Below are positions 3,838-44,600 of a DNA stretch of 44,600 bases, in pieces (position 1 is the stretch's first letter; each line of letters opens with the position of its first letter). The translations under genes were made by a program, and so were the position numbers. Source of the stretch: Fibrobacter sp. GTDB lineage: Bacteria > Fibrobacterota > Fibrobacteria > Fibrobacterales > Fibrobacteraceae. Where the stretch lies: assembly GCA_017642335.1 (NCBI GenBank), contig JAGCPF010000013.1, positions 1-44,600 of the forward strand, in the 5' to 3' direction. The notes beneath the pieces were generated by a model. It was not told where the DNA came from and searched no databases. It saw only the letters and a list, made by a program, of their open reading frames with translations.

Positions 3838-5723
3838 TGGCTGAACAGCTGACAGAACCGACTGCCGTTGCGCAGAAATTCGAAAACACGCTACCTTATA
3901 CCGGCAACGTGGATTTCTGCCTTGGCGGTCTGATTCAGGGGCTCACGCCGCCAAAAGATCAGACGATTAGCCAGTGGGCGGCAGAAAACCGACTCTTGGC
4001 GGGCGAAGCGTCCGCTTCGAAGGGTAAGTGGACCAATGACCGCACGCCTTACCTGGTAGAAATCATGGATATGCTCAGCCCGCAAAGCCCCTGCAGCGAT
4101 GTGGCGTTCATGAAGGGCTCGCAGATTGGCGGCACCGAGTGCATGATCAACACGGCGCTTTACTACATGCTGCAAAGCCCGTGCCCGATTGGCCTTTATC
4201 AGACCACCGACGATGCCGCCGCCGATTTCGAGCGCCAACGATTGGCCCCGACTTTTGCGGCGATGAAGATGGACCAGTATTTCACTGGCGACACCGCCGG
4301 TTGCAAGGAATATCCGGGTGGCATCTTCTTTCTCGGTTCAGGTGGCTCCGCTTCGCAGTTGCGCTCGAAGCCCCTGCAGGTGGTGCTCTGTGACGAAATC
4401 TCGGGTTGGCCTCTCGACTGCAACGGCGAAGGTGATCCGTGCGACCTGGTGAAGCGTAGAACGACGAACTTTCCGCGCAGAAAGCGCTTCTGGAACTCGA
4501 CACCGACCATCAAGGGTAAGTGCCGCATTACCAAGAAATTCGAAATTGGCGACCAGCGCTACTACAATGTTCCTTGCCCGCATTGCGGCGAGCTGCACGT
4601 GTGGGAATTCAAGAACATGGTGTGGGACAAGGATGCCGACGGTAATAATTTGCCGTACACCGTGCGCATGAAGTGCCCGCATTGCGAAGGTGAATATCAG
4701 GAATGGCGAAAGACTGAACTGATGGCGCAGGGGCAGTGGGTGCCCACGAATCCGAATGGAGCTTACCCGAGCTACCATTTGAGCGCTTTCTATAGCCCGC
4801 TCGGGTGGTATTCCTGGGAAGAGGCCGTGACGGAGTTCCTGGAAGCGAAGGGTGACCCGCAAAAGCTGAAGGTGTGGACCAACAACGTGGAAGGCCGTGC
4901 TTGGGATGAAGAAAACCAGGTCCGGCACGATTTCTCGGAATTGTTCTTGCGTCGCGAAGAATATGGATGCGAAGTTCCGGATGATGTCGTGATTTTGACT
5001 GCGGGCGTAGACACCCAGGATGACCGATTGGAAGTGGAAATAGTCGGATGGGGCCGAGGGCTCGAAAGCTGGAGCATCGACTACAGGATTATTCCGGGTG
5101 ACCCTGACCGCTCGGAAGTGTGGGAAACTCTTGACGAAATCCTTATGGAATCGCACTACGAGAAAGCGGACGGTACACAACTTTACATTGCGGCCGCGCT
5201 TGTTGACTCTGGCGGACATAAGACTACATCCGTCTACAAGTATTGCGCAAAGCGTGAATGGCGGCGCATTTATGCCAGTATTGGTGCGCGTGGTCCGAAT
5301 AGGCCTGTCATCAGTCGCCCGGGATCCACGAAAAAATCCTCTGCAGAAAACGCCAAGCTTATTACCGTTGGCACGGATACTGTCAAGGATTGGTTCTTCA
5401 ATGTTCTTGCGTACAACAATCCTGGTCCGGGATATTGCCATTTTCCGATGAAAGATGTCTATGATCAGGAACATTTCAAGCAGCTTGCCGAATCGGAAGT
5501 GAAAAAATCACACATGAGTCGCGGTTTTCTGACCTATTCTTACGACAAGGTCAGAGATCGTAACGAGGCTCTTGACTGTAGGGTGTATTCGCGTGCGGCT
5601 CTCAATTTAGTTGGCGTCGATGTGGACAAGATGGCTGCTGCGGGTGTCAGTTATACAAGGAATCCGGCCCGAAAAGCGCCGGTTCGTAGAGGTTTTGTTG
5701 TCAACCAGGGAATGAAAATATGA
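3837..5723 (+). CDS. Terminase large subunit, GpA family (packaging ATPase/nuclease)
   Basis: A 628-aa protein close to lambda gpA in length (641 aa). It drives DNA into the prohead by ATP hydrolysis and cuts the concatemer. The N-terminal ATPase part has 'DVAFMKGSQIGGTE' (Walker A-like region, about residues 84-97) and 'LQVVLCDEISGW' (Walker B, about 180-191). A cysteine pair motif, 'CPHCGELHVWEF' and 'MKCPHCEGEY', matches the zinc-binding feature of GpA proteins. The C-terminal nuclease has 'AGVDTQDDRLEVEIVGWG', the typical GpA acidic motif. Translation is coupled to the small subunit by the TGATG overlap. GpA terminases normally make cohesive ends, supporting a cos site upstream. Confidence 0.93.
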   Translation: MAEQLTEPTAVAQKFENTLPYTGNVDFCLGGLIQGLTPPKDQTISQWAAENRLLAGEASASKGKWTNDRTPYLVEIMDMLSPQSPCSDVAFMKGSQIGGTECMINTALYYMLQSPCPIGLYQTTDDAAADFERQRLAPTFAAMKMDQYFTGDTAGCKEYPGGIFFLGSGGSASQLRSKPLQVVLCDEISGWPLDCNGEGDPCDLVKRRTTNFPRRKRFWNSTPTIKGKCRITKKFEIGDQRYYNVPCPHCGELHVWEFKNMVWDKDADGNNLPYTVRMKCPHCEGEYQEWRKTELMAQGQWVPTNPNGAYPSYHLSAFYSPLGWYSWEEAVTEFLEAKGDPQKLKVWTNNVEGRAWDEENQVRHDFSELFLRREEYGCEVPDDVVILTAGVDTQDDRLEVEIVGWGRGLESWSIDYRIIPGDPDRSEVWETLDEILMESHYEKADGTQLYIAAALVDSGGHKTTSVYKYCAKREWRRIYASIGARGPNRPVISRPGSTKKSSAENAKLITVGTDTVKDWFFNVLAYNNPGPGYCHFPMKDVYDQEHFKQLAESEVKKSHMSRGFLTYSYDKVRDRNEALDCRVYSRAALNLVGVDVDKMAAAGVSYTRNPARKAPVRRGFVVNQGMKI

Positions 5724-23283: not shown

Positions 23284-24162
23284 ATGGCAAGACCGAATGA
23301 CGCCACGAGGCGAATAACTATAACTATTTATGCCGCTGACGGAATTACCGTCCTTGGCACGACAACCCGCACCATCTATGCTGCGGGTCTATGGAACACT
23401 CAAACCATCGCCATTACCGGCGATGTCGTTGGTCAAGGAACGACCGACTTTGCGGACGGCGCTGGTCTTACGTTCGGCGTAACGTTGCAGGCCGATACGG
23501 TCGGCACCGGAAACCTCAAGGTTGGCTCCGTGACGCTGAACAGGATTGCTTCTAGCGCCATGACCAGCGTCGCCACAGCCGGTGACGACAAGCTGATTAC
23601 TAGCGGTGGTGTTAGGACCGAAATCGACAATGCCCTCCTTAACAGGGGTATAGATTACGGCCCGAGAACTCCTGCTCAGATTAACGGTACCGCGACTGGA
23701 GATGCCGCGGCCCGCAACATCACCGGCACCATTCCTACCGGTTCTACAGTCCACGTTACGGCGGATGGCACCGTTACTGACGGTTACAAGGATGGCGAGC
23801 ACGCTTCGATTACTGTTCGAGAAGGCGAAGACCTGAGGTACTATTCCGAAGGCGGTGTCCACGGGTGGTACACGCTTGATGCCGAATTCAAGCTCAAGCA
23901 GGACCCGGTAACATCTTCCGACTTTGCGGAAGACGGTGACACTTCCGACTTCAAGTTTGTGTCTTCAGTCACGCAGGACGCGAATGGAGACATTGGCGTT
24001 ACCATCAAGACGATTCCGCTGGCGACGCCGAGCACCAATGGTTCCGGTGGCAAGGCTGGCCTTATGAGTGCCTCCGACAAGGAAAAGGTGAACGGTCTCG
24101 ATGACGAAATCACTGCGAATGACGTGGTAACTGCGTGGAACGCCTGGACGCCATCTACATAA
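23284..24162 (+). CDS. Tail fibre-like protein (292 aa) upstream of the DGR target
   Basis: A beta-rich protein with Thr/Gly/Ser repeats ('ITITIYAADGITVLGTTTRT', 'ITGTIPTGSTVHVTADGTVT'). It has a segment 'MTSVATAGDDKLITSGGVRT' like the 'S-x-A-V-R-T' connector motifs also found in the fibre at 27429 ('YPSEKAVRTELDKKA'). It ends with 'EITANDVVTAWNAWTPST'. Likely the proximal part of the fibre or adaptor that carries the variable tip. The next gene follows behind a separate AAGGAG site. Confidence 0.65.
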   Translation: MARPNDATRRITITIYAADGITVLGTTTRTIYAAGLWNTQTIAITGDVVGQGTTDFADGAGLTFGVTLQADTVGTGNLKVGSVTLNRIASSAMTSVATAGDDKLITSGGVRTEIDNALLNRGIDYGPRTPAQINGTATGDAAARNITGTIPTGSTVHVTADGTVTDGYKDGEHASITVREGEDLRYYSEGGVHGWYTLDAEFKLKQDPVTSSDFAEDGDTSDFKFVSSVTQDANGDIGVTIKTIPLATPSTNGSGGKAGLMSASDKEKVNGLDDEITANDVVTAWNAWTPST

Positions 24163-24174
24163 GGAGATTAAGAT

Positions 24175-25569
24175 ATGGCTGATTACTTGAACAAGTATGC
24201 TAACGACGGCACTGGTGCTGGAGGATACAACAATACCGATGAACAGTCGGCGCGCGCCGCGCTCGGGAATACGGTATCGCTTGTCGAATCTACTGGCGAG
24301 GTGCATTATGACGGAGTCAACGTCGAACGCCCTGCCAACAACCCGATGGAGGGTGACGTACTGTATCTTGACGCAAACGGAGGCAAGCACTTCGTTGACG
24401 AAGAGTCGCTTGTGGTGTCATCTATTCCTGCGAGCTGGAAGGCGGCTGGTGTCGTCGCTTACCGGGAAGGTAACAACGTGATGGTTATGGACCATCACGA
24501 CAGCGGAACGATGACGTTTACTTCCGGATGGATGCATGCCATTCTTGGAATGCAGCTCTCCGGAACGCAGACGATTACATTCCAACAGTGGAATGGTAGC
24601 GCGAATGCTGATGTTGGAACGTTCAGCACGAGTGCGACTACATTGGATGCTTTCGTCGAGGCCCTGGATTTGTGGCTTCGAACGACGGGGAACGATCCGA
24701 ACGGCTACAACTGGCATGCCGAGAAATTGGCTTTTGAGGACGGTTCTGAAATCTGTGTGGTTGTATCGGATACGATGTCGTCATATCAGCGTTCGAATTC
24801 GATTGTAAAAGAGTCTTCGCCAAGCGGTGTTACCGGAAATCTGTATCTGTGGAATCTTGTCGGTCAGACTACAAACTACCAAAATGTCCTTCGAGAAAAT
24901 GGCGGAAAAGGTTATAGGCCGGGTTGCAATCTTGACAGACTTATTGAATACTACCGTACCAATAATTCTACGACAACTCCGACGTCGATGGTGTCCGTGT
25001 CCAACGGTTCAGAAATTATGAATCTCGCTACATATCGTGACAACCAGTATTGCGCCGATTTACGGGCCAAGTATGGCGAAGGCGAAACGGGATGGCTGAA
25101 GTACATGGAGTCTCTCATGATGACATGGCCGGCTCGCAACGGAGATGCCTGGAATATGTACGGCACTGGCAAGAGCCTGACAATGCGGATGGCCGCTTTT
25201 ACGTACAAGAACAAATCCGGGACTAGTGTCGATACGTTCAGGGCTGCCGCATGGTCTGCGAAGACTCCGACAAGAAACAGCCTTCCCTATTCAGCAGGTC
25301 TTGCATACGGTGACTGGTACATGCCGGATATTGTCGAGATGAAGAAAATTTTTGGAAGGTGGAATACTTCCGGTACGTCTCCTGTCCAAAAGGCACTCGC
25401 CAAGGTTTCTCCTTCCGCTACGGATTTTCGCTCGTTGGCGGTTGCTCGTTGGGCTCCCGCGCGGAATTACTACTTTAACGCGTGTATATTGAGTTCCAAC
25501 GGTTACTTCAACTACGGCACCTTCTCCAACAGCTACAGGGCGGTGGCGGTCGCGCTCTTGAAACTTTGA
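24175..25569 (+). CDS. DGR target protein: tail tip adhesin with C-terminal variable lectin-like domain
   Basis: A 464-aa protein behind AAGGAGATTAAG. The C-terminal part from about residue 370 ('GLAYGDWYMPDIVEMKKIF', then 'RSLAVARWAPARN') has the look of C-type-lectin/formylglycine-enzyme-fold DGR targets: a W-x-x-P-x-x-x-E-x-x helix followed by a final strand region that holds the variable residues and ends in R-A-V-A-V. The variable repeat covers residues about 419-462, ending three codons before the stop. Twelve of the 17 Asn codons in the template are changed here. The N-terminal 350 residues are fibre or adaptor sequence. It sits with the tail fibre genes, so it probably binds the host surface. 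Confidence 0.9.
   Translation: MADYLNKYANDGTGAGGYNNTDEQSARAALGNTVSLVESTGEVHYDGVNVERPANNPMEGDVLYLDANGGKHFVDEESLVVSSIPASWKAAGVVAYREGNNVMVMDHHDSGTMTFTSGWMHAILGMQLSGTQTITFQQWNGSANADVGTFSTSATTLDAFVEALDLWLRTTGNDPNGYNWHAEKLAFEDGSEICVVVSDTMSSYQRSNSIVKESSPSGVTGNLYLWNLVGQTTNYQNVLRENGGKGYRPGCNLDRLIEYYRTNNSTTTPTSMVSVSNGSEIMNLATYRDNQYCADLRAKYGEGETGWLKYMESLMMTWPARNGDAWNMYGTGKSLTMRMAAFTYKNKSGTSVDTFRAAAWSAKTPTRNSLPYSAGLAYGDWYMPDIVEMKKIFGRWNTSGTSPVQKALAKVSPSATDFRSLAVARWAPARNYYFNACILSSNGYFNYGTFSNSYRAVAVALLKL
25428..25560 (+). repeat. DGR variable repeat (VR)
   Basis: Aligns without gaps to the template repeat at 26103-26235 (offset 675). There are 18 differences in 133 bp: 17 fall on template adenines (9 to T, 4 to C, 4 to G) and one is G to T at 25485. 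The first 37 bp are identical and the template there lacks adenine. The GC-rich AGGGCGGTGGCGGTCGCG near the end is identical, then an AAC codon is again changed (CTC 25555-25557). Similarity falls off after 25560. Confidence 0.95.
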
Positions 25570-25574
25570 CCTTT

Positions 25575-25597
25575 GGCGCGGCCTTGAAAGCCGCGCC
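25575..25597 (+). promoter_or_regulatory. GC-rich hairpin downstream of VR (retrohoming target structure)
   Basis: GGCGCGGC (25575-25582) pairs perfectly with GCCGCGCC (25590-25597) around CTTGAAA. It starts five bases after the target stop codon, 15 bp after the VR. In the Bordetella phage DGR an 8-bp hairpin at the matching place is needed for efficient homing. There is no T-run after it, so it is not a standard terminator. Assignment is by position and stem size. Confidence 0.75.
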
Positions 25598-25623
25598 TGC
25601 AACCTTGAACGGAGTAATGTAGA

Positions 25624-26070
25624 ATGGACTTGAAGATGAAAGGATTTCAGACGAACAAGCAGTCGATATACATTGACTGCAAGCAGCTGCTGCGCCGTCT
25701 GTACAGGCTCCGGTTCAAGGTGGCTAAACGTCATCGTGATAGTCTATTTGACAAGTGTCTTTTCCCGGCGTTGTTGGGTATGATTAGACATTTTCGCAGG
25801 GCGTATCGTTTCCGTGATGAAAGGGTCAAGGAACTGGATGAATTTCTTTTTTCGTTCGAAGATTTTAATTCATGGGTAGATGTTGCTTCTGAAGAGAAGG
25901 TGATTAACGATAAGGAGTACGCTTCGTTATTCGAATATATTGTAAGGATTTATGAAAGCGTGAACGCTTACAGAAATTCCGCAAGGAAGGCTAGGTCAAG
26001 CGCCGGTTCAAACGACGACGGCGCTTCCGAAAACAAAGATGATTCAAGAGGAGGCGACGGATTCATTTAA
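25624..26070 (+). CDS. avd: DGR accessory variability determinant (Avd-like)
   Basis: A 148-aa protein with GGAG before ATG 25624. The first 115 residues are helical and strongly basic (IDCKQLLRRLYRLRFKVAKR; 'GMIRHFRRAYRFRDERVKEL'), as in the five-helix pentameric barrel of Bordetella Avd (128 aa), which binds the RT and template RNA. The last 30 residues are a disordered acidic/Ser tail (SAGSNDDGASENKDDSRGGD). Placed between target and template repeat, the classical DGR order. Avd proteins vary widely, so the name rests on size, charge, helicity and location. Confidence 0.82.
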   Translation: MDLKMKGFQTNKQSIYIDCKQLLRRLYRLRFKVAKRHRDSLFDKCLFPALLGMIRHFRRAYRFRDERVKELDEFLFSFEDFNSWVDVASEEKVINDKEYASLFEYIVRIYESVNAYRNSARKARSSAGSNDDGASENKDDSRGGDGFI

Positions 26071-26102
26071 TCCAGTTCTGGCAGTGCGCCTTTTAGATCG
26101 GC

Positions 26103-26235
26103 TCGCTCGTTGGCGGTTGCTCGTTGGGCTCCCGCGCGGAATAACAACAATAACGCGTGGATATTGAATAACAACGGTTACTTCAACAACAACAACTTCA
26201 ACAACAACAACAGGGCGGTGGCGGTCGCGAACTTG
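26103..26235 (+). repeat. DGR template repeat (TR)
   Basis: Invariant template for the VR. The first 37 bases (26103-26139) contain no adenine. From 26140 to 26232 there are 38 adenines, nearly all in 17 AAC/AAT codons (26140-26154, 26167-26175, 26185-26196, 26200-26211, 26230-26232), which cannot become stop codons by adenine changes. The block GGGCGGTGGCGGTCGCG (26213-26229) lacks adenine and is the likely stable homing end. It lies in the Avd-RT intergenic region, so the transcript carrying it can come from the same operon. The reading frame is also open into the RT gene. Confidence 0.95.
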
Positions 26236-26262
26236 ATGCTTTGTATTCTGTTGGAATGCGTT

Positions 26263-27429
26263 ATGGTAAAGTTGGAAGACTTGGTTACGGTGTACTACAA
26301 GGCTCGCGCAAGCAAGCGCAGGTCTCGTGACTCTGTTCGCTTTGAAGTCAATTTCAAGGCTGTTCTTCTGCATTTGTGGAAGTCTATTAACGATAGAACT
26401 TTCGCGGCGCATTCCAACTACGCCTTCGTTGTCAGGACGCCGAAACCGCGTGAGATTTTCGCGACGGCGATGGAAACGCGTATTATCCATCATTACCTTG
26501 ACTGGCGTCTGCGCCCTATTTACGAGAGCGTGCTTTCTGGCCGGAGTTTTAACAACCGCAAGGGCAAGGGCCTACATGCGGCAATAAGGACTTATGCGAA
26601 AGACATCCGTGAACTGTCTTGCGGCTACACGAAGGATGCCTGGTGTATCCATCTTGACCTGAAGGGATATTTCCCGAATGCGGATGTCGAGATTGCGCTT
26701 GCGCAGCAGCTAGACCTTATCGAGCGTTACTACGAAGGCGAAGACAAGGATGATCTGAAGTACATGATGACGGTTTGCATGCGAGCGGACCCGGCGCGAC
26801 ATTGCGATATATTCGTGTCAAAATCAAACTGGGACTGCATCGCTCCTGAAAAGTCGCTATTCAATAAGCCTGTCGGTACTGGAGGTGCTATCGGTTTTCT
26901 CTGCTGGCAGAATGCGATGGGGCTGTATATCAATGAAGTGACGAAGTGGCTTCAGTCTTTCGATTTTTTGCGGGTGGTTGTTTTTGTGGACGATATTTAC
27001 ATCGCGACAAACGACAAGGCGAAGACTCTTGCCTTGATGCCGGAGCTTCGTTGTCGTCTAGCCAGGTTGAATGTTTGTCTTAACGAAAGTAAGTTCTATT
27101 GCCAGCATTACAGCAAGGGAATAATGTGCCTCGGAACGATGCTGAAGTTCGACAGAATGTATGTGTCAAACAAGACGGTCAAGAATTCCGTCAAGAGATT
27201 TTCTTCCTTGAATATTGAAAAACCTTTGCGGGTTTCTTTGCCGAAGATGCTGGCGTCTATAAATTCTACGCTCGGGATTTTCGCTCATAAGACAATGCGC
27301 AAGACGGTGTATGCACTTTGCGGAATCGTCGAAAAACGTGTCGGCAGATTCCTGGAACGGAATCCGGAAAATAACAGTTTCTTGATTCGTGAACAATTCA
27401 AAATAAATAGATTGAGGAGGGCTGCGTAA
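26263..27429 (+). CDS. DGR reverse transcriptase
   Basis: A 388-aa RT; start ATG 26263 (GGA eight bases upstream) is preferred over the in-frame ATG 26236 in the template end. Motifs in order: 'RIIHHYLDWRLRPIYESVLSG' (about 73-93), 'SFNNRKGKGLHAAI' (95-108), motif A 'CIHLDLKGYFPN' with D132, the DGR-type motif 'GTGGAIGFLCWQNAMGLY' (206-222) in place of the usual [I/L]GxxxSQ, the catalytic box 'VVVFVDDIYI' with DD at 243-244, and 'NESKFYCQHYSKGIMCLG' (274-291). It copies the TR RNA with adenine errors. Unusual: Trp at the position of the usual Ser in IGFLCWQ. Its stop overlaps the next fibre gene (TAATG). Confidence 0.95.
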   Translation: MVKLEDLVTVYYKARASKRRSRDSVRFEVNFKAVLLHLWKSINDRTFAAHSNYAFVVRTPKPREIFATAMETRIIHHYLDWRLRPIYESVLSGRSFNNRKGKGLHAAIRTYAKDIRELSCGYTKDAWCIHLDLKGYFPNADVEIALAQQLDLIERYYEGEDKDDLKYMMTVCMRADPARHCDIFVSKSNWDCIAPEKSLFNKPVGTGGAIGFLCWQNAMGLYINEVTKWLQSFDFLRVVVFVDDIYIATNDKAKTLALMPELRCRLARLNVCLNESKFYCQHYSKGIMCLGTMLKFDRMYVSNKTVKNSVKRFSSLNIEKPLRVSLPKMLASINSTLGIFAHKTMRKTVYALCGIVEKRVGRFLERNPENNSFLIREQFKINRLRRAA

Positions 27430-28070
27430 TGGCCTATTTCAAGAATGCGGCGATGAACCAACTCATCGACCTTGTGAGAACTGCAATATCGCAGATTAGC
27501 GGCAGCGGCACCGACCATGCGAAAGTGACTGCCGCCGCTCTCGTAGACCTGAATGCCCGGCTTGAGGCATTGGAAAATGCGGGTTCCGAAGACTTTGGCA
27601 ATATCGTTGCGGATACGATTGACCTCGTGGACTTCCCGAAGGTTGCCGGTGCGCCCACGGTTGTTATCGGATCTGGAGCTCCTGAGTCCGCTCCGGATTT
27701 TGCCGGTCAGTTCTACATCGATACTACCGGTACCCTTTACATGGCGTCCGGCAACAGCTCTGTAACAGACTGGAAGGCCTGCGAGATGGTTGCGAACAAA
27801 CGGATGTCTGTCCGGGGGGCATCCAGCGCAACGGATGCTGCCTACCCGTCGGAAAAGGCCGTGAGAACGGAGCTCGACAAGAAAGCTGACAAGAAAGTTC
27901 CCGCAGCTGATGGAAACCTTGCGTACCTTGACGCTGTTGGAAACTTGCAGGACAGCGGTAAGAAAGTGGGCGATTTTGTTCTTGATAGTAACCTTACGGA
28001 CTGGACAGTAACCGAACTCAAAACATTGTGGGACAATACACCCAGCACGCCTGTAGTGCCGACTACTTAA
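27429..28070 (+). CDS. Tail fibre module protein (213 aa), coupled to the RT
   Basis: ATG 27429 overlaps the RT stop (TAATG) with AGGAGG upstream, so translation is coupled. Features: 'ALVDLNARLEALENAGSEDF' (a coiled coil also found, in variant form, at the start of the 28290 fibre), 'IGSGAPESAPDFAGQFYIDT' (a carbohydrate-binding-like turn common in phage fibres), and 'SVRGASSATDAAYPSEKAVRTELDKKADK' with trimeric coiled coil. It likely forms a fibre shaft. That it lies right after the retroelement suggests the DGR cassette inserted within a fibre cluster. Confidence 0.65.
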   Translation: MAYFKNAAMNQLIDLVRTAISQISGSGTDHAKVTAAALVDLNARLEALENAGSEDFGNIVADTIDLVDFPKVAGAPTVVIGSGAPESAPDFAGQFYIDTTGTLYMASGNSSVTDWKACEMVANKRMSVRGASSATDAAYPSEKAVRTELDKKADKKVPAADGNLAYLDAVGNLQDSGKKVGDFVLDSNLTDWTVTELKTLWDNTPSTPVVPTT

Positions 28071-28083
28071 TGGAGGTTGATTT

Positions 28084-28290
28084 ATGGCTCATAACGGAAA
28101 ACTTACAACCAGCGCGGGCTGGAACGCGATATTCTCCTGGATCAAGGCGTTGGTGGCGACTAAGCACGACGCTACGCTCAGCGTGACGAAGGATAACTTC
28201 GTGGCCTCGGTGTCTGCCGGTAACGGCGAACAGACCGGAGACCTCAAGATAAGCGTTACGATGGGTCAGGCCGTCAAGGATGTTAGCTGA
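28084..28290 (+). CDS. Short fibre-associated protein (68 aa) with a GWNAIFSWIK motif
   Basis: ATG 28084 with GGAGG upstream. The N-terminal 'KLTTSAGWNAIFSWIKALVA' is shared with the next protein (NSSGWNAIFSWIKYALTGKR), and the DNA is nearly identical there. Both probably use it to attach to a common partner. It ends at TGA 28288-28290, overlapping the next ATG. A truncated fibre or adaptor. Confidence 0.6.
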   Translation: MAHNGKLTTSAGWNAIFSWIKALVATKHDATLSVTKDNFVASVSAGNGEQTGDLKISVTMGQAVKDVS

Positions 28291-34394: not shown

Positions 34395-35448
34395 ACAGCT
34401 CTGGAATCGCGTCAACTGCCTTGCGACGGCCTTCGTCGAGCACTTTTGCGTAAATTTGGGTTGTTTCTACAGATTTGTGACCAAGCAATTTGCTTACGGT
34501 GTAAAGTTCAGCACCGTGTTTTAGTGCTAGTGTGGCGAAAGTGTGGCGTGACATGTGAAAATGCAAGTTCTTTTTTATTCCCGCTTCTGCGGCCCAATTC
34601 TTAAGCTTTCTGTTCAACGAATTCAATGGGTCTATTTCGAAAACAAAACCTTTATGTTTTTTTTCTTGAGGCATAAATTTTCGGGCGTTTTCTGACAGCG
34701 GTACTCTGACGATTTCGTCGGTTTTTTCCATTCTCAAAATGATGATGCCTTTTTCGATGTTTTCCCATTTTAGCCGTTTTACGTCGGAAAACCTTAATCC
34801 GGTAAAGCAGCAAAATAAAAAAGGGTTCCTAACTTCTTCAGGTGCGTCTGCTTCTTGGAGTTTTCGCAGTTCGTCAATGTCGAGAAATTCTACATCTTTA
34901 GTCAACTTTTTGGGAGTTAGACCGTATAGGTCTGGATTTTGTGGGATCATCCCGTCTATATATGCATCGTGAAGACGTGCTTTTAACAGGACTGCGTAAA
35001 GACGAGCTGTATTGACGGATCGCTTTTCGAGTAAGTAATCGACAAAGGCTTTGAAAAAATCTCGGTTAATCTCTGCCAAAGTGGCGTTACGTTTGAAATC
35101 TTTCAACGCGTTGACCATTGTTTGGTTGTTTTGACGAGAATTTTCGGTCTTTATTGAAGAAATCTTCTTTTCAAAATAATCGGCGGCCAAGACCGTTTTA
35201 ATCTTCTTTGGCGTGGAAACGTTTAATTCTCCGGAATCAAGCTCTCTGATTCTCTTGTTTTTTATCTCGGTGGCCAGACGAATTGTTTCCTGATTTTTTA
35301 TCTTGTCGGCATGAGTCTTGGCTGGAACCAGGTAGAGTTTCAGGAACTCTCGAATCCTTTTTCCGCCGATCCGGTAGTCCAAGTGTAACGAAAAACCGCC
35401 ACCTTTTACAGGGCGCTGGTTAATGTGAACCTTCTCTTTAATCTTCAT
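34393..35448 (-). CDS. Tyrosine-family site-specific integrase
   Basis: A 351-aa phage integrase. The N-terminal arm/SAM-like domain has 'INQRPVKGGGFSLHLDYRIG', then 'RNATLAEINRDFFKAFVDYL' and 'LLKARLHDAYIDGMIPQNP'. The catalytic domain has 'FCCFTGLRFSDVKRLKWENI' (first Arg), 'FHMSRHTFATLALKHGAELY' (H-x-x-R box) and 'LLGHKSVETTQIYAKV' (last His and Tyr nucleophile). The order suits the phage/Bacteroidota type with arm-binding N-terminus. Its start is close to the GTGACC repeats, so it may regulate itself. It integrates the phage at attB by recombination with attP, which probably lies just upstream. Confidence 0.95.
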   Translation of the reverse strand: MKIKEKVHINQRPVKGGGFSLHLDYRIGGKRIREFLKLYLVPAKTHADKIKNQETIRLATEIKNKRIRELDSGELNVSTPKKIKTVLAADYFEKKISSIKTENSRQNNQTMVNALKDFKRNATLAEINRDFFKAFVDYLLEKRSVNTARLYAVLLKARLHDAYIDGMIPQNPDLYGLTPKKLTKDVEFLDIDELRKLQEADAPEEVRNPFLFCCFTGLRFSDVKRLKWENIEKGIIILRMEKTDEIVRVPLSENARKFMPQEKKHKGFVFEIDPLNSLNRKLKNWAAEAGIKKNLHFHMSRHTFATLALKHGAELYTVSKLLGHKSVETTQIYAKVLDEGRRKAVDAIPEL

Positions 35449-39667: not shown

Positions 39668-41467
39668 TTATTCCTCTTCTTCGATGGATTCTTCGTCTTG
39701 GATTTCTTCGGAATCGCCGTCATCATCGTCGGCGTCTTCGTTTGCTCGCAGTTCGTCCTGGAGCTTGATTTCTGCCTGGATGTCTTCTTCGGTGACCTGG
39801 ATTCTTTCGATGTTGCCGACAAGAATCGTGTAGAGCTTTTTCAGCATTTTCATGTCGTTGATGCTTTTGACGATATTGCCGATGCAAAAACGAACGGCTT
39901 CAGCTACGTCGCGGTAAGTCTTGTCGGCAGGCATATCTTCAAGGGCCTTGTTGTAGCCGTCTTCGTTTTCTCCGTCGATGCCAAGCTTCTTTAAACCTTC
40001 TTCGTCAAAAAATTGATAGTAGTTGTCTGCAGCAAAAACAAGCAAAGTTACGATGATGTCAGCTTGAGACTTGAAATCCACGCAGATGTTGGCAATGCCG
40101 TCCTGCAGGCGTTCTCGCATAAGCTTTTCATGAATGCTCTTTTTGCGGGCGTTCATGTTTTCGATTTCAAGTCGCTGTTCGCGTTCTTCTTCAGTTTCTT
40201 CGTGATAATCGGGCAGGTCGCGCTTGTCGTAATATTCGAGCGTCTTGCCGGTGGCCGCATCGACAAGGATTCGTTTCTGAATGCCTGCTTCCTTGGCCTG
40301 TTCCTGGCCCTTGGTGTCCCAGGAGCTGATATCGTACTTGTCGGCTTCGTCTTCGTAACTGATGCATTTGCCGGAGAATTTGCCGAGCCTTGCATTCCTG
40401 CCTTCTTCCTGAAGCTTCTTCACCTTGGCTTCTGCGGCCTTCTTTGCCTTGCGTGCCCAGCAGTTAGGATCCAGGCAGTAGGCCTTCGGCTCGTTCTCGA
40501 ACAGGTCTGCCTGGCAGGCGCTGCACTTGGCGCACTGGAGGCAGGCATCGTGTTCGAACGGTGCGCGGCTCAGGTCCTTGTGGTAACGGTCGAGAACGCC
40601 GTCAATAAAATACTTGTCCGTGCGGTAGCAACTTTCGAGCTCGCGCTTGAATACGTTATCCGGGAGGTCTGCAATTTTTGCAGCCGCATCGAGACCGATT
40701 ACGCCTTCCTTGACTTTCTTCAGCACCTTGTCACCTGCGTCGGCAAGCTTCTTGCGGACCAGCACCCAGCGGAGCGTTCTGCCAAAATGCTTGGCGATTG
40801 CGGAGGGCGTCTTCTTCTTTCCGGAAAGTGCCTTCACGGCCATGCATTCTTCGTAGGGCGTCATGTCCATGCGGGTGATGTTTTCTGTAAGCGAGATTTC
40901 CTCGACGCCTTCGCGGTCCTTGAGCATTACGTGGCAGGGAATCTTCTTGAGCCCGAGCTGTACTGCGGCCGCAAATCGGCGGAATCCTGCGATGACCTTG
41001 AAACTCTGGTTGCCCTCGTCGAGCACGGTAATCGGGTTTACGATACCGTGTTCCTGGATGGAGGCAAGCAGGTCGTCGATGTCCTTGACTTCGCGGATGT
41101 TGTCGTTAGCCTTGACGTTCTTCGTGTCGATGACGCGGAAGTTGTAGACCCGTTCTTCGGACTTTTCAGCTGCAGGCTTGTCCACCTTTTGCTTTATGGC
41201 AGCGTTTGCATCCTTGATGCTCGCTGTGACGTATTTGGGTTTGTTTTCCTTTTTCATTTCGATGCCTTTTTCCTTGTGGTTGTTTTCAATTCTTTCGATC
41301 AGGGCTTCGACTTCGTCGATTTCGCGCTTGCCAGGGAACGGAATACCGTGGCGGTTGCAAAACACCCTGCATGCCTTGATGCTTCGGCCTTGCGGGCATA
41401 CCCCGCAGCGCATGATCTTCACGTCAATGTTGGTCCATGTCTTGAATGTCTTGTCGTACTTTTTCAT
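39668..41467 (-). CDS. ParB/Spo0J-like nuclease-type partition protein (599 aa)
   Basis: Residues about 108-220 hold the ParB N-terminal domain: 'ANDNIREVKDIDDLLASIQE', 'GNQSFKVIAGFRRFAAAVQL' (G-x-R-R box) and 'EISLTENITRMDMTPYEECM'. The HTH follows ('AIAKHFGRTLRWVLVRKKLA'). A second Cys-rich part, about 310-345 (CLQCAKCSACQADLF; 'KAYCLDPNCW'), is a zinc-binding region known from plasmid/phage ParB-like proteins. The C-terminus is very acidic. The first 70 residues carry a further Cys cluster (C21, C24, C33, C37). An internal ATG 41257 with AAGGAAAAAGG could give a shorter form. May act in plasmid-like partition or replication. Confidence 0.85.
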   Translation of the reverse strand: MKKYDKTFKTWTNIDVKIMRCGVCPQGRSIKACRVFCNRHGIPFPGKREIDEVEALIERIENNHKEKGIEMKKENKPKYVTASIKDANAAIKQKVDKPAAEKSEERVYNFRVIDTKNVKANDNIREVKDIDDLLASIQEHGIVNPITVLDEGNQSFKVIAGFRRFAAAVQLGLKKIPCHVMLKDREGVEEISLTENITRMDMTPYEECMAVKALSGKKKTPSAIAKHFGRTLRWVLVRKKLADAGDKVLKKVKEGVIGLDAAAKIADLPDNVFKRELESCYRTDKYFIDGVLDRYHKDLSRAPFEHDACLQCAKCSACQADLFENEPKAYCLDPNCWARKAKKAAEAKVKKLQEEGRNARLGKFSGKCISYEDEADKYDISSWDTKGQEQAKEAGIQKRILVDAATGKTLEYYDKRDLPDYHEETEEEREQRLEIENMNARKKSIHEKLMRERLQDGIANICVDFKSQADIIVTLLVFAADNYYQFFDEEGLKKLGIDGENEDGYNKALEDMPADKTYRDVAEAVRFCIGNIVKSINDMKMLKKLYTILVGNIERIQVTEEDIQAEIKLQDELRANEDADDDDGDSEEIQDEESIEEEE

Positions 41468-42763: not shown

Positions 42764-43174
42764 TTAGAACGGCAAGTCTTCGTCGACTGCGGTGTTAGAT
42801 TCCGGATTGGTGGCGGCGGCACCTTCCTGTGCGGCCTGGTTCTTGTCGGTGGTGCGGTGGCCCGTGAGTTCGATGCCTGTGCAGTTCAGGGCCCCCGTCG
42901 TGCGCGGAATGCCGTCGTTGTCGGTCCAGTTGTTGATTTCCCAACGGCCAGTGACGCATACCTTGTCGCCCTTGCCCAGGTGGACCTTGCGGGCGTAATT
43001 TGCGGAGCCCCAAATGACGACCGGAATCCAGTCGGTGGGACGGCTGCCGTCTTCGCGCTTGTAGTTGCGGTCCACGGCGATGGAAAAACGCACGCGCTCC
43101 TTGCCGTTCGGCAGGGTGGTAATTTCGGGATTGTCGCCGAGGCGGCCGACAAAAGTGCATACATTCGTTGACAT
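42764..43174 (-). CDS. ssb: Single-stranded DNA-binding protein
   Basis: A 136-aa OB-fold protein. 'MSTNVCTFVGRLGDNPEITT', 'VRFSIAVDRNYKREDGSRPT', 'DWIPVVIWGSANYARKVHLG', 'KGDKVCVTGRWEINNW' are the standard SSB strands, and the C-terminal tip DEDLPF is the partner-binding tail. It coats single strands in phage replication and recombination. Confidence 0.95.
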   Translation of the reverse strand: MSTNVCTFVGRLGDNPEITTLPNGKERVRFSIAVDRNYKREDGSRPTDWIPVVIWGSANYARKVHLGKGDKVCVTGRWEINNWTDNDGIPRTTGALNCTGIELTGHRTTDKNQAAQEGAAATNPESNTAVDEDLPF

Positions 43175-43671: not shown

Positions 43672-44037
43672 TTACATTCCCTTCTCGAAAATCGACTTGC
43701 TGAAGAATTCGGTGCGGGCGTCAAGGTCTTGCTGCTTGAAGCTCTTGGCGGGGCGGTTCGCATTCTCGATGCGGGCCTCGACAAGCTTCTGCTTTCGGAT
43801 TTCTCGCCACACCCAGTTGCCCTTGCGCAGCACTGCCGCGTGGTTCTTGTAGTGCTTCGCTTCCTTGCCGTCGTTCTCGATGTAGGCATCAAGGATCTCG
43901 ATGGCGAGCTGCAAGTCGGCACCGTACACTTCGCGCAGGTGGTGGCCTTCCGCGTCGGTGAGCATCACGTGCCTGCAAGTGCCGTAAGCCTTCTTTTCTG
44001 CGGCGGGCAAAAGACTGGTCTGCCTGGCCTTCGTCAT
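43672..44037 (-). CDS. Replication-protein C-terminal domain-like protein (121 aa)
   Basis: ATG 44037 with GGAGG upstream, overlapping the previous stop. 'GTCRHVMLTDAEGHHLREVY' then 'GADLQLAIEILDAYIENDGK' and 'HYKNHAAVLRKGNWVWREIR' follow the pattern of phage replication-protein C-terminal domains (L-T-D-x-x-x-x-L-...-I-E-x-L-...-Y-x-x-...-W). It shares the ending 'KSFKQQDLDARTEFFSKSIF' with the next gene upstream; the two are tandem paralogues. Confidence 0.65.
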   Translation of the reverse strand: MTKARQTSLLPAAEKKAYGTCRHVMLTDAEGHHLREVYGADLQLAIEILDAYIENDGKEAKHYKNHAAVLRKGNWVWREIRKQKLVEARIENANRPAKSFKQQDLDARTEFFSKSIFEKGM

Positions 44038-44600
44038 ACCACCTCCTTGTCGAAAATCGACTTGCTGAAAAACTCGGTGCGGTCGTCGGCGTCCATCTGC
44101 TTGAAGCTCTTCGGGGTGCTGGTCGCCTTTTCGAGGCGGGCGTCTTCGGTCTTCGCGCGTTTGAGCGCACTGTCCACCCAGTTGTCCTTGCGCATCACGT
44201 AATAGTGGTTGCGCTTGCTGTATTCCTCGCGCCAGCACTTGTATTCACCCTTGTCGTCGCCGTCGGCCTTGCTCGGGAGCCCGAGCATGTAGTTTTCCAG
44301 AATGCCCACGGCGCGGTCGAAATCTGCGCCGTAATAGGTGCGCAATTTGTCGGCCTGGGTGTCCGTCAGGTGCACCAGGCCGTATTCGCCAAAGGAACGC
44401 ACGGGAGCCTTGCCGGAATGGCTTACCGGCTTGTCGTTTTTAACCCTCTCGGGAGCGGCCCCCGTGCGCTGACTCTGCCGAGCCTCGTCTGTGCTTATCG
44501 GGGTTGTGGTGACGGGTGTGGTAGCTAAAAGTTTGCCGGATTCGGGGCACGTGTCCGGCTGCACGTTACCAGTATTACTATCCCCTTGGGTCTTAGCGGA
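44034..44600 (-). CDS. Replication-type protein, C-terminal part (partial)
   Basis: The frame runs off the right edge without a start. A GTG at 44564 has no ribosome binding site, so the gene probably begins outside. 'FGEYGLVHLTDTQADKLRTY' followed by 'DFDRAVGILENYMLGLPSKA' and 'RNHYYVMRKDNWVDSALKRA' is the conserved C-terminal domain of phage replication initiators. It ends 'KSFKQMDADDRTEFFSKSIF'. The middle is a Ser/Thr/Pro linker. It would load helicase or act as initiator in the early operon. Confidence 0.65.
   Translation of the reverse strand, partial: SAKTQGDSNTGNVQPDTCPESGKLLATTPVTTTPISTDEARQSQRTGAAPERVKNDKPVSHSGKAPVRSFGEYGLVHLTDTQADKLRTYYGADFDRAVGILENYMLGLPSKADGDDKGEYKCWREEYSKRNHYYVMRKDNWVDSALKRAKTEDARLEKATSTPKSFKQMDADDRTEFFSKSIFDKEVV

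Follow-up and report, generated by a model that had tools for sequence, protein, structure and literature searches.

A predicted RNA fold enclosing the template repeat of a phage diversity-generating retroelement

How does a diversity-generating retroelement (DGR) set the two ends of the segment that it copies? In these systems an error-prone reverse transcriptase (RT) copies a template repeat (TR) and the product replaces a variable repeat (VR), as in Bordetella phage BPP-1, and to our knowledge the account of this mechanism rests largely on that one phage. Here we analyse a 44,600-bp phage contig (the window, meaning the whole stretch of DNA analysed), which holds a complete DGR at 24175-27429, its parts lying in the classical order target, VR, hairpin, Avd, TR and RT, as the original prediction had it. 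In gene content this is an ordinary DGR of a known kind; what is new is the architecture of its template RNA and the fold predicted for it. We consider it likely that this complete phage DGR rewrites the C terminus of a predicted tail protein by way of a template RNA folded with helices that bracket the TR.

Adenine-directed variation and the 3′ limit of copying

The VR at 25428-25560 aligns with the TR at 26103-26235 over 133 bp without gaps and with 18 mismatches, 17 of which fall at template adenines (hypergeometric p 3.5e-10); 12 of its 17 Asn codons are changed and no stop has arisen. These counts reproduce those of the original prediction, and extending the match to 141 bp adds two further non-adenine mismatches (17/20 at adenine). 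The two 3′-most adenine changes, however, call for another interpretation. Here the TR of the window reads GCG-AAC-TTG and the VR GCG-CTC-TTG, and the same AA to CT difference recurs in 35 of 37 TR/VR pairs, the window and a distant clade included (AT to CT in locus L079, none in L066), in a set that contains near-identical phages (L006/L007, L008/L009, L014/L015 and others). Because random adenine changes would not yield the same dinucleotide every time, AA to CT at 25555-25556 most probably falls beyond the copied segment, whose 3′ limit it would mark. As a fixed marker it is not a product of mutagenesis, so the mutagenised part of the TR ends at 26229; within 26103-26229 the figures become 15 of 16 mismatches at adenine and 11 of 16 Asn codons changed (p 6e-9).

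We then compared the window with 17 loci from IMG/VR whose RTs are 53-77% identical to its own (18 loci in all). All 17 relatives possess a VR, an open reading frame (ORF) in the place of Avd, a TR and an RT in the same order, with the VR 621-698 nt upstream of the TR and the TR just before the RT. Over the 18 loci, 337 of 357 TR/VR mismatches lie at template adenines. For these counts the repeat diagonals were first located with a score that tolerates adenine mismatches and then re-extended with an even score; L014 and L016, both included, are identical, only the first VR piece of L012 was entered because its VR has an indel, and L023 and L024, read on the wrong strand, were left out. The L012 indel (5199-5312) is a single base relative to the TR and shifts the target frame within the VR.

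Variation between closely related phages bears directly on the proposal that the VR should vary only at template adenines while the TR stays constant. In four pairs of related loci, which are relatives of the window phage and not that phage itself, the TR shows no difference in any pair (4/4), and 103 of 105 VR differences are at template adenines. L014 and L015 differ at 32 VR positions, all 32 at adenine, and at 2 positions elsewhere in 13,009 nt (13,143 nt compared, TR identical); L006 and L007 differ at 20 VR positions, 19 at adenine, and at 4 elsewhere in 11,116 nt. In these two pairs VR change far outpaces that of the rest of the genome. For L008/L009 the figures are 28 VR differences, 28 at adenine, and 450 elsewhere in 6,519 nt, and for L002/L003 they are 25, 24 at adenine, and 316 elsewhere in 9,066 nt. 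In addition, five relatives of the window's target protein (P0001-P0005) differ from it at 13, 16, 10, 16 and 14 of 21 template-adenine residues (this set includes 461 and 463, which coincide with or follow the fixed AA/CT mark), and at 1, 2, 3, 2 and 3 of 25 other VR residues; before the VR, 29/418, 41/418, 54/410, 81/418 and 116/408 residues differ. This population evidence from relatives supports DGR activity in the lineage, so that the claim that the system is or was active holds at that level, by figures that do not come from this exact phage.

Two alternatives can be weighed at this point. That the repeats are a chance match or a gene duplication with no retroelement behind them has a vanishingly small probability: the adenine bias of the window (p 6e-9) is common to the 17 relatives, nothing was found in favour of such an origin, and the 18-locus adenine counts and pair comparisons rule it out. 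It is also improbable that the DGR was once active and is now silent in this phage copy. For silence speaks the one difference within the copied segment that is not at an adenine (TGG to TGT; VR 25483-25485, TR 26158-26160), which turns Trp into Cys at a target position where at least 90% of 34 aligned homologues have Trp; loss of this near-invariant residue might impair the window's copy, and the population evidence is drawn from relatives. Against silence, the target, avd and RT frames are open, the FVDD motif is present, the VR lacks stops, the window keeps the AA/CT mark, the hairpin and the RNA elements, and relatives of the target vary at template-adenine residues.

A predicted fold around the template repeat

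RNAalifold, run on 14 loci with no structure supplied, returned two stem-loops (SL1 and SL2) and two helices (P1 and P2) that link the tail of avd to the spacer after the TR (Table 1). Leaving out four short-range pairs within the TR, we counted 31 of its 35 pairs: 23 of the 31 show changes on both sides, and 96.2% of 422 cells are paired, compared with only 32-44% when the partners are slid by 1-3 columns. The covariation score is 0.562 versus 0.171 ± 0.018 after shuffling, and none of 500 shuffles reaches any of five measures. Both-side changes occur at 9/9 pairs of SL1 (89.7% of cells paired), 6/7 of P1 (97.7%), 1/4 of P2 and 7/11 of SL2. SL1, SL2 and P1 covary in these alignments, and P2 is little varied within the clade and altered in step between clades. 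Taken together, these comparisons argue for a predicted, covariation-supported fold of the template RNA in which SL1, SL2 and P1/P2 enclose the TR. We found no account of such a fold in the literature searched, which covered the Bordetella RNA papers only in part, and we do not judge priority. Furthermore, the element contains no Rfam family: over 24000-27600 a single match up to E 1 was returned, outside the element at 24069-24096 (E 0.32, under its gathering score).

As the structure had been picked on its own alignment, it was tested on other loci. When P1/P2 strands were paired with their own or with swapped partners, no permutation of 5000 was as good in the 14 loci; outside the alignment the corresponding figures were 53/5000 in 7 loci and 9/5000 in 16 distant loci (L048 lacked the anchor of the P1 test, and in L072 and L073 the P1/P2 anchors were placed on a later AA/CT). 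From 11 loci we built a covariance model (R1) of the 5′ element, which matched 15/15 other close-clade rows at E 5e-13 or better; three of these rows (L011, L012 and L025) had also contributed to the RNAalifold alignment, and some of the 15 come from the same or nearly the same phage. R1 also matched 12 of 19 loci of a distant, rumen-type clade (E 8e-4 to 0.7), all on the + strand and about 180-290 nt before the RT match. This clade (L065-L080, L106, L108 and L109, the last three in metagenome-assembled genomes named Bacteroidales or Bacteroidaceae) has RTs 34-43% identical to that of the window.

A second model (R2), trained also on the distant matches of R1, places SL2 upstream of the TR in 17/19 distant loci, 12 of the 17 being from its training set. 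The new matches are L078 and L109 (E about 1e-7) and, weakly, L079, L106 and L076 (0.02-0.35); L065 and L066 are missed, and two further matches, off position, resemble chance (E 0.39 and 0.62). SL2 lies 0-5 nt before the TR in 12 of these 17 loci; in the remaining five, whose match or TR is weak, truncated or interrupted by an insert, the distance is 19-62 nt. No R2 match was obtained in other Fibrobacter DGRs (L026-L041), in more remote RT loci (L083-L104 and, from Firmicutes, L110-L121), or in phages F2/F4, BS-TP1, Haboob and BPP-1. Across 167 genomes of the phylum, under stricter filters, R2 matched only four, the same four in which an RT search of 80 genomes of the genus found the window's RT clade; the training set had contained each of them, and the informative point is therefore the absence of other matches. 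Other genomes of the genus Fibrobacter (L029, L031, L034, L036, L037, L041) carry distant DGRs with RTs 27-34% identical, whose TR/VR of about 147-199 bp differ at template adenines only or nearly so.

Folded separately, 14 distant loci again gave SL2 and P2, the latter as AGUAA/UUACU one nucleotide after the AA. The distant clade thus resembles the window in having SL2 upstream of the TR, the AA/CT mark (17/19), P2 and a short spacer, and differs in that P2 is not CAAG/CUUG and SL1 is weaker.

In 15 loci, avd codons 121-148, where SL1 lies, show excess synonymous identity of 0.27, 0.11 and 0.31 per block, and the values of 10 among the 12 remaining avd blocks are negative (locus pairs with more than 85% identical codons were skipped, and the RT part of the test contained the short wrong-strand rows L023 and L024). 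In L004 and L017 the stretch past the usual avd stop falls inside the avd frame, and its letters are nonetheless kept.

Several observations weigh against the fold, or against the part we assign to it. The choice of structure and its first count used one and the same alignment (31/35 RNAalifold pairs), and although P2 is paired in 100% of cells, three of its four pairs are invariant within the close clade. The window RNA alone folds no better than shuffles (z -0.10), nor do its truncated P1/P2 strands alone beat them (236/500). In the 18 close loci SL2 stands 7-37 nt from the detectable TR start and is not flush with it. In the distant clade only one of five P2 pairs shows both-side changes, and RNAalifold did not call P1. 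The hairpin downstream of the VR is absent from L013 and L018. For this phage, the points at which cDNA begins and ends, the misreading of adenines and retrohoming itself are all deduced from sequence.

SL1, SL2, P1 and P2 could instead be features of the DNA or of mRNA regulation, for example in control of RT translation, and have nothing to do with a template RNA. The 3′ strand of P1 ends 14 nt before the RT start and could mask a ribosome site. In both clades, however, the 3′ strand of P2 sits at the AA mark or one nucleotide after it and the helices enclose the TR, positions that translation control would not need, and we regard this alternative as unlikely.

Parts of the element and the phage that carries it

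Table 1. Coordinates of the DGR parts and of the predicted RNA elements in the window
Feature	Position	Strand	Details
Target gene (ORF)	24175-25569	+	predicted tail-associated protein, 464 aa, VR at C terminus
VR, mutagenised part	25428-25554	+	15/16 mismatches to TR at template A
CT of VR	25555-25556	+	faces AA of TR; fixed VR/TR difference, predicted 3′ limit of transfer
Hairpin after VR	25575-25597	+	8-bp stem, 7-nt loop CTTGAAA
Avd	25624-26070	+	148 aa; PHROG 3206 'Avd protein of DGR', E 4.4e-7
SL1	25998-26026	+	stem-loop in avd 3′ end; 8 bp (up to 9 in relatives); loop consensus GUCAAACNANG
P1, 5′ strand	26029-26036	+	pairs with 26241-26248
P2, 5′ strand	26045-26048	+	CAAG; pairs with 26232-26235
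SL2	26051-26092	+	hairpin 10 nt before TR; outer stem 26051-26056/26087-26092, inner stem 26059-26063/26069-26073
TR, copied part	26103-26229	+	GC-rich segment 26215-26229, IMH*-like (IMH, initiation of mutagenic homing)
AA of TR	26230-26231	+	fixed TR mark adjoining P2
P2, 3′ strand	26232-26235	+	CUUG
P1, 3′ strand	26241-26248	+	in TR-RT spacer
DGR RT	26263-27429	+	388 aa; active site FVDD, IGFLCWQN motif

A DGR-type RT, an Avd and TR/VR differences almost all at template adenines bear out the identification of the system as a DGR. The RT matches RVT_1 (E 6e-11), phrog_1423 (E 4e-41) and PDB entry 8ub7 'Reverse transcriptase' (E 3e-16), which we take to be a member of a cryo-EM series of DGR RTs. 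DGR RTs carry a GxxxSQ-type motif, and at this position the window RT reads IGFLCWQ, with the Q kept and W instead of S. ATG 26263 is the most probable start of the RT. A start at TTG 26110 within the TR was rejected since that frame is closed inside or after the TR in 14 of 18 loci (it is open through the TR only in the window, L006, L007 and L017) and the first residues agree at 26263. In the window a single reading frame runs through Avd, the TR (in the target frame) and the RT over 25624-27429, interrupted only by the avd stop. In profile searches Avd gave no Pfam match, and the target neither a Pfam nor a PHROG match.

Baseplate_J and Mu Gp48-like genes precede the target gene, whose product has at least 19 homologues among the matches listed. 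Its AlphaFold model reaches a mean predicted local distance difference test score (pLDDT) of 81; the C-terminal part modelled alone is poor (mean pLDDT 48), and that model was not used further. A Foldseek search against the PDB gave no match at E <= 0.001, and no C-type lectin is named among the structure matches listed, which is not evidence on the fold. From its position and the model, the target is a putative host-binding tip. The hairpin after the VR has a counterpart with an 8-13 bp stem in 17/19 loci, with stem letters altered on both sides and a loop of 6-7 nt in the other 16 loci that have it.

The window is the whole contig and has a phage gene complement (terminase, portal, protease, capsid, sheath, tube, tape measure, baseplate and Mu Gp48-like genes), in which baseplate and Mu Gp48-like genes are followed by the retroelement, further tail genes and an integrase. 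Judging by its sheath, tube, Baseplate_J and Mu Gp48 matches, the phage is contractile-tailed, in agreement with the original prediction. A tyrosine integrase, a ParB_N-domain protein and an SSB on the - strand (34396-35448, 39671-41467 and 42767-43174) indicate that it is probably temperate. The assignment to the host genus Fibrobacter rests on binning, and two other genomes of that genus contain contigs related to the window. The window's own genome holds a single match to the window RT and a single TR/VR pair. Close to the contig end is a direct repeat of 97 bp, 81% identical (43680-43776 and 44045-44141), and a 32-bp repeat occurs at 28115 and 28322.

A possible mechanism and comparison with known systems

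On the predicted fold, the avd-TR-RT transcript would fold such that P1 and P2 join the avd tail to the short spacer and the TR stands out as a loop. RT-Avd would bind this RNA, cDNA synthesis would begin at the AA/P2 junction, template adenines would be misread during copying, and the cDNA would stop at SL2 upstream of the TR, so that P2 and SL2 may set its start and its end. With the help of the hairpin that follows the VR, the cDNA would then take the place of the VR sequence preceding the fixed CT, yielding phages with altered binding specificity.

How far does this depart from BPP-1, for which we draw on two papers (PMC3240598, PMC12875486)? The two systems are alike in gene order (mtd-avd-TR-brt in BPP-1), in Avd and in adenine-directed TR/VR differences. 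BPP-1 also has a GC-rich 3′ segment followed by fixed TR/VR mismatches, and a hairpin downstream of the VR (PMC3240598, PMC12875486); segment 26215-26229 of the window resembles the (GC)14 of the BPP-1 IMH, and the mismatches after it resemble the IMH/IMH* difference (PMC3240598). According to PMC3240598, the BPP-1 target-site hairpin has a 7-10 bp stem and a 4-nt GRNA loop, and two extra loop nucleotides reduce activity to near background. The 8-bp stem of the window hairpin fits this description, whereas its 7-nt loop sets it apart from a BPP-1-type site.

The flanks of the TR differ as well. In BPP-1 the TR directly adjoins the avd stop and a spacer of 144 nt comes after it, whereas in the window a structured 5′ element precedes the TR and only 31 nt separate the AA mark from the RT start, so that a long 3′ spacer of the BPP-1 type is lacking. 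PMC12875486 describes the long BPP-1 spacer as recruiting bRT-Avd and priming, and a motif in avd as ending the cDNA. One might accordingly suppose that the window is of BPP-1 type throughout, with a priming and RT-recruiting 3′ structure overlapping the start of the RT gene and with SL1 and SL2 merely terminating the cDNA. Those roles of spacer and avd motif favour such a reading, as does pairing of the BPP-1 avd tail with its own spacer that is somewhat above shuffles (21/500 as good; we did not adopt it as a common feature). It is opposed by the shortness of the spacer, and by the synonymous signal: the excess at RT codons 1-10 is weak (0.086) and does not stand out from other blocks of the RT (up to 0.189), compared with 0.11-0.31 at the avd 3′ end, and a structured 3′ spacer inside the RT gene was rejected on this ground. 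A BPP-1-type arrangement throughout thus seems rather unlikely to us, without being negligible. Given a spacer of about 30 nt in place of the long one of BPP-1, the 5′ side of the template RNA likely carries part of the recruiting and priming.

We suggest, tentatively and at somewhat less than even confidence, that the window and its relatives form a distinct DGR subclass in phages of Fibrobacter and Bacteroidales-type hosts with a self-bracketed template RNA. SL2 and P1/P2 would keep the TR looped out and define where the cDNA starts and stops, with priming at the fixed AA by P2 and a stop at SL2, in a retron-like compact design replacing the long 3′ spacer of BPP-1. Bacteroides uniformis phages F2 and F4 (MT806186, MT806185) are similar in having RTs 33-35% identical and, read by eye, an SL2-like hairpin, ACTATCATTTATAGT, between Avd and TR; they differ in giving no R1 or R2 match at E up to 1 and in TR/VR ends without the AA/CT mark. 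In phage F2 (L122) an annotated 'hypothetical protein' (QNO13181.1, 2759-3004) covers the TR and the SL2-like hairpin and is probably no gene, and Pseudomonas phage Haboob (L125) has one TR with two VR-like repeats (1511-1610 and 2221-2323).

A fold that encloses the TR and ends at the fixed TR/VR mark offers a testable account of where other DGRs start and stop copying, and the RNA profile could find and delimit such DGRs without relying on the RT. Finally, the natural pairs described here display hypermutation in phages whose lineage occurs together with gut bacteria that break down fibre.

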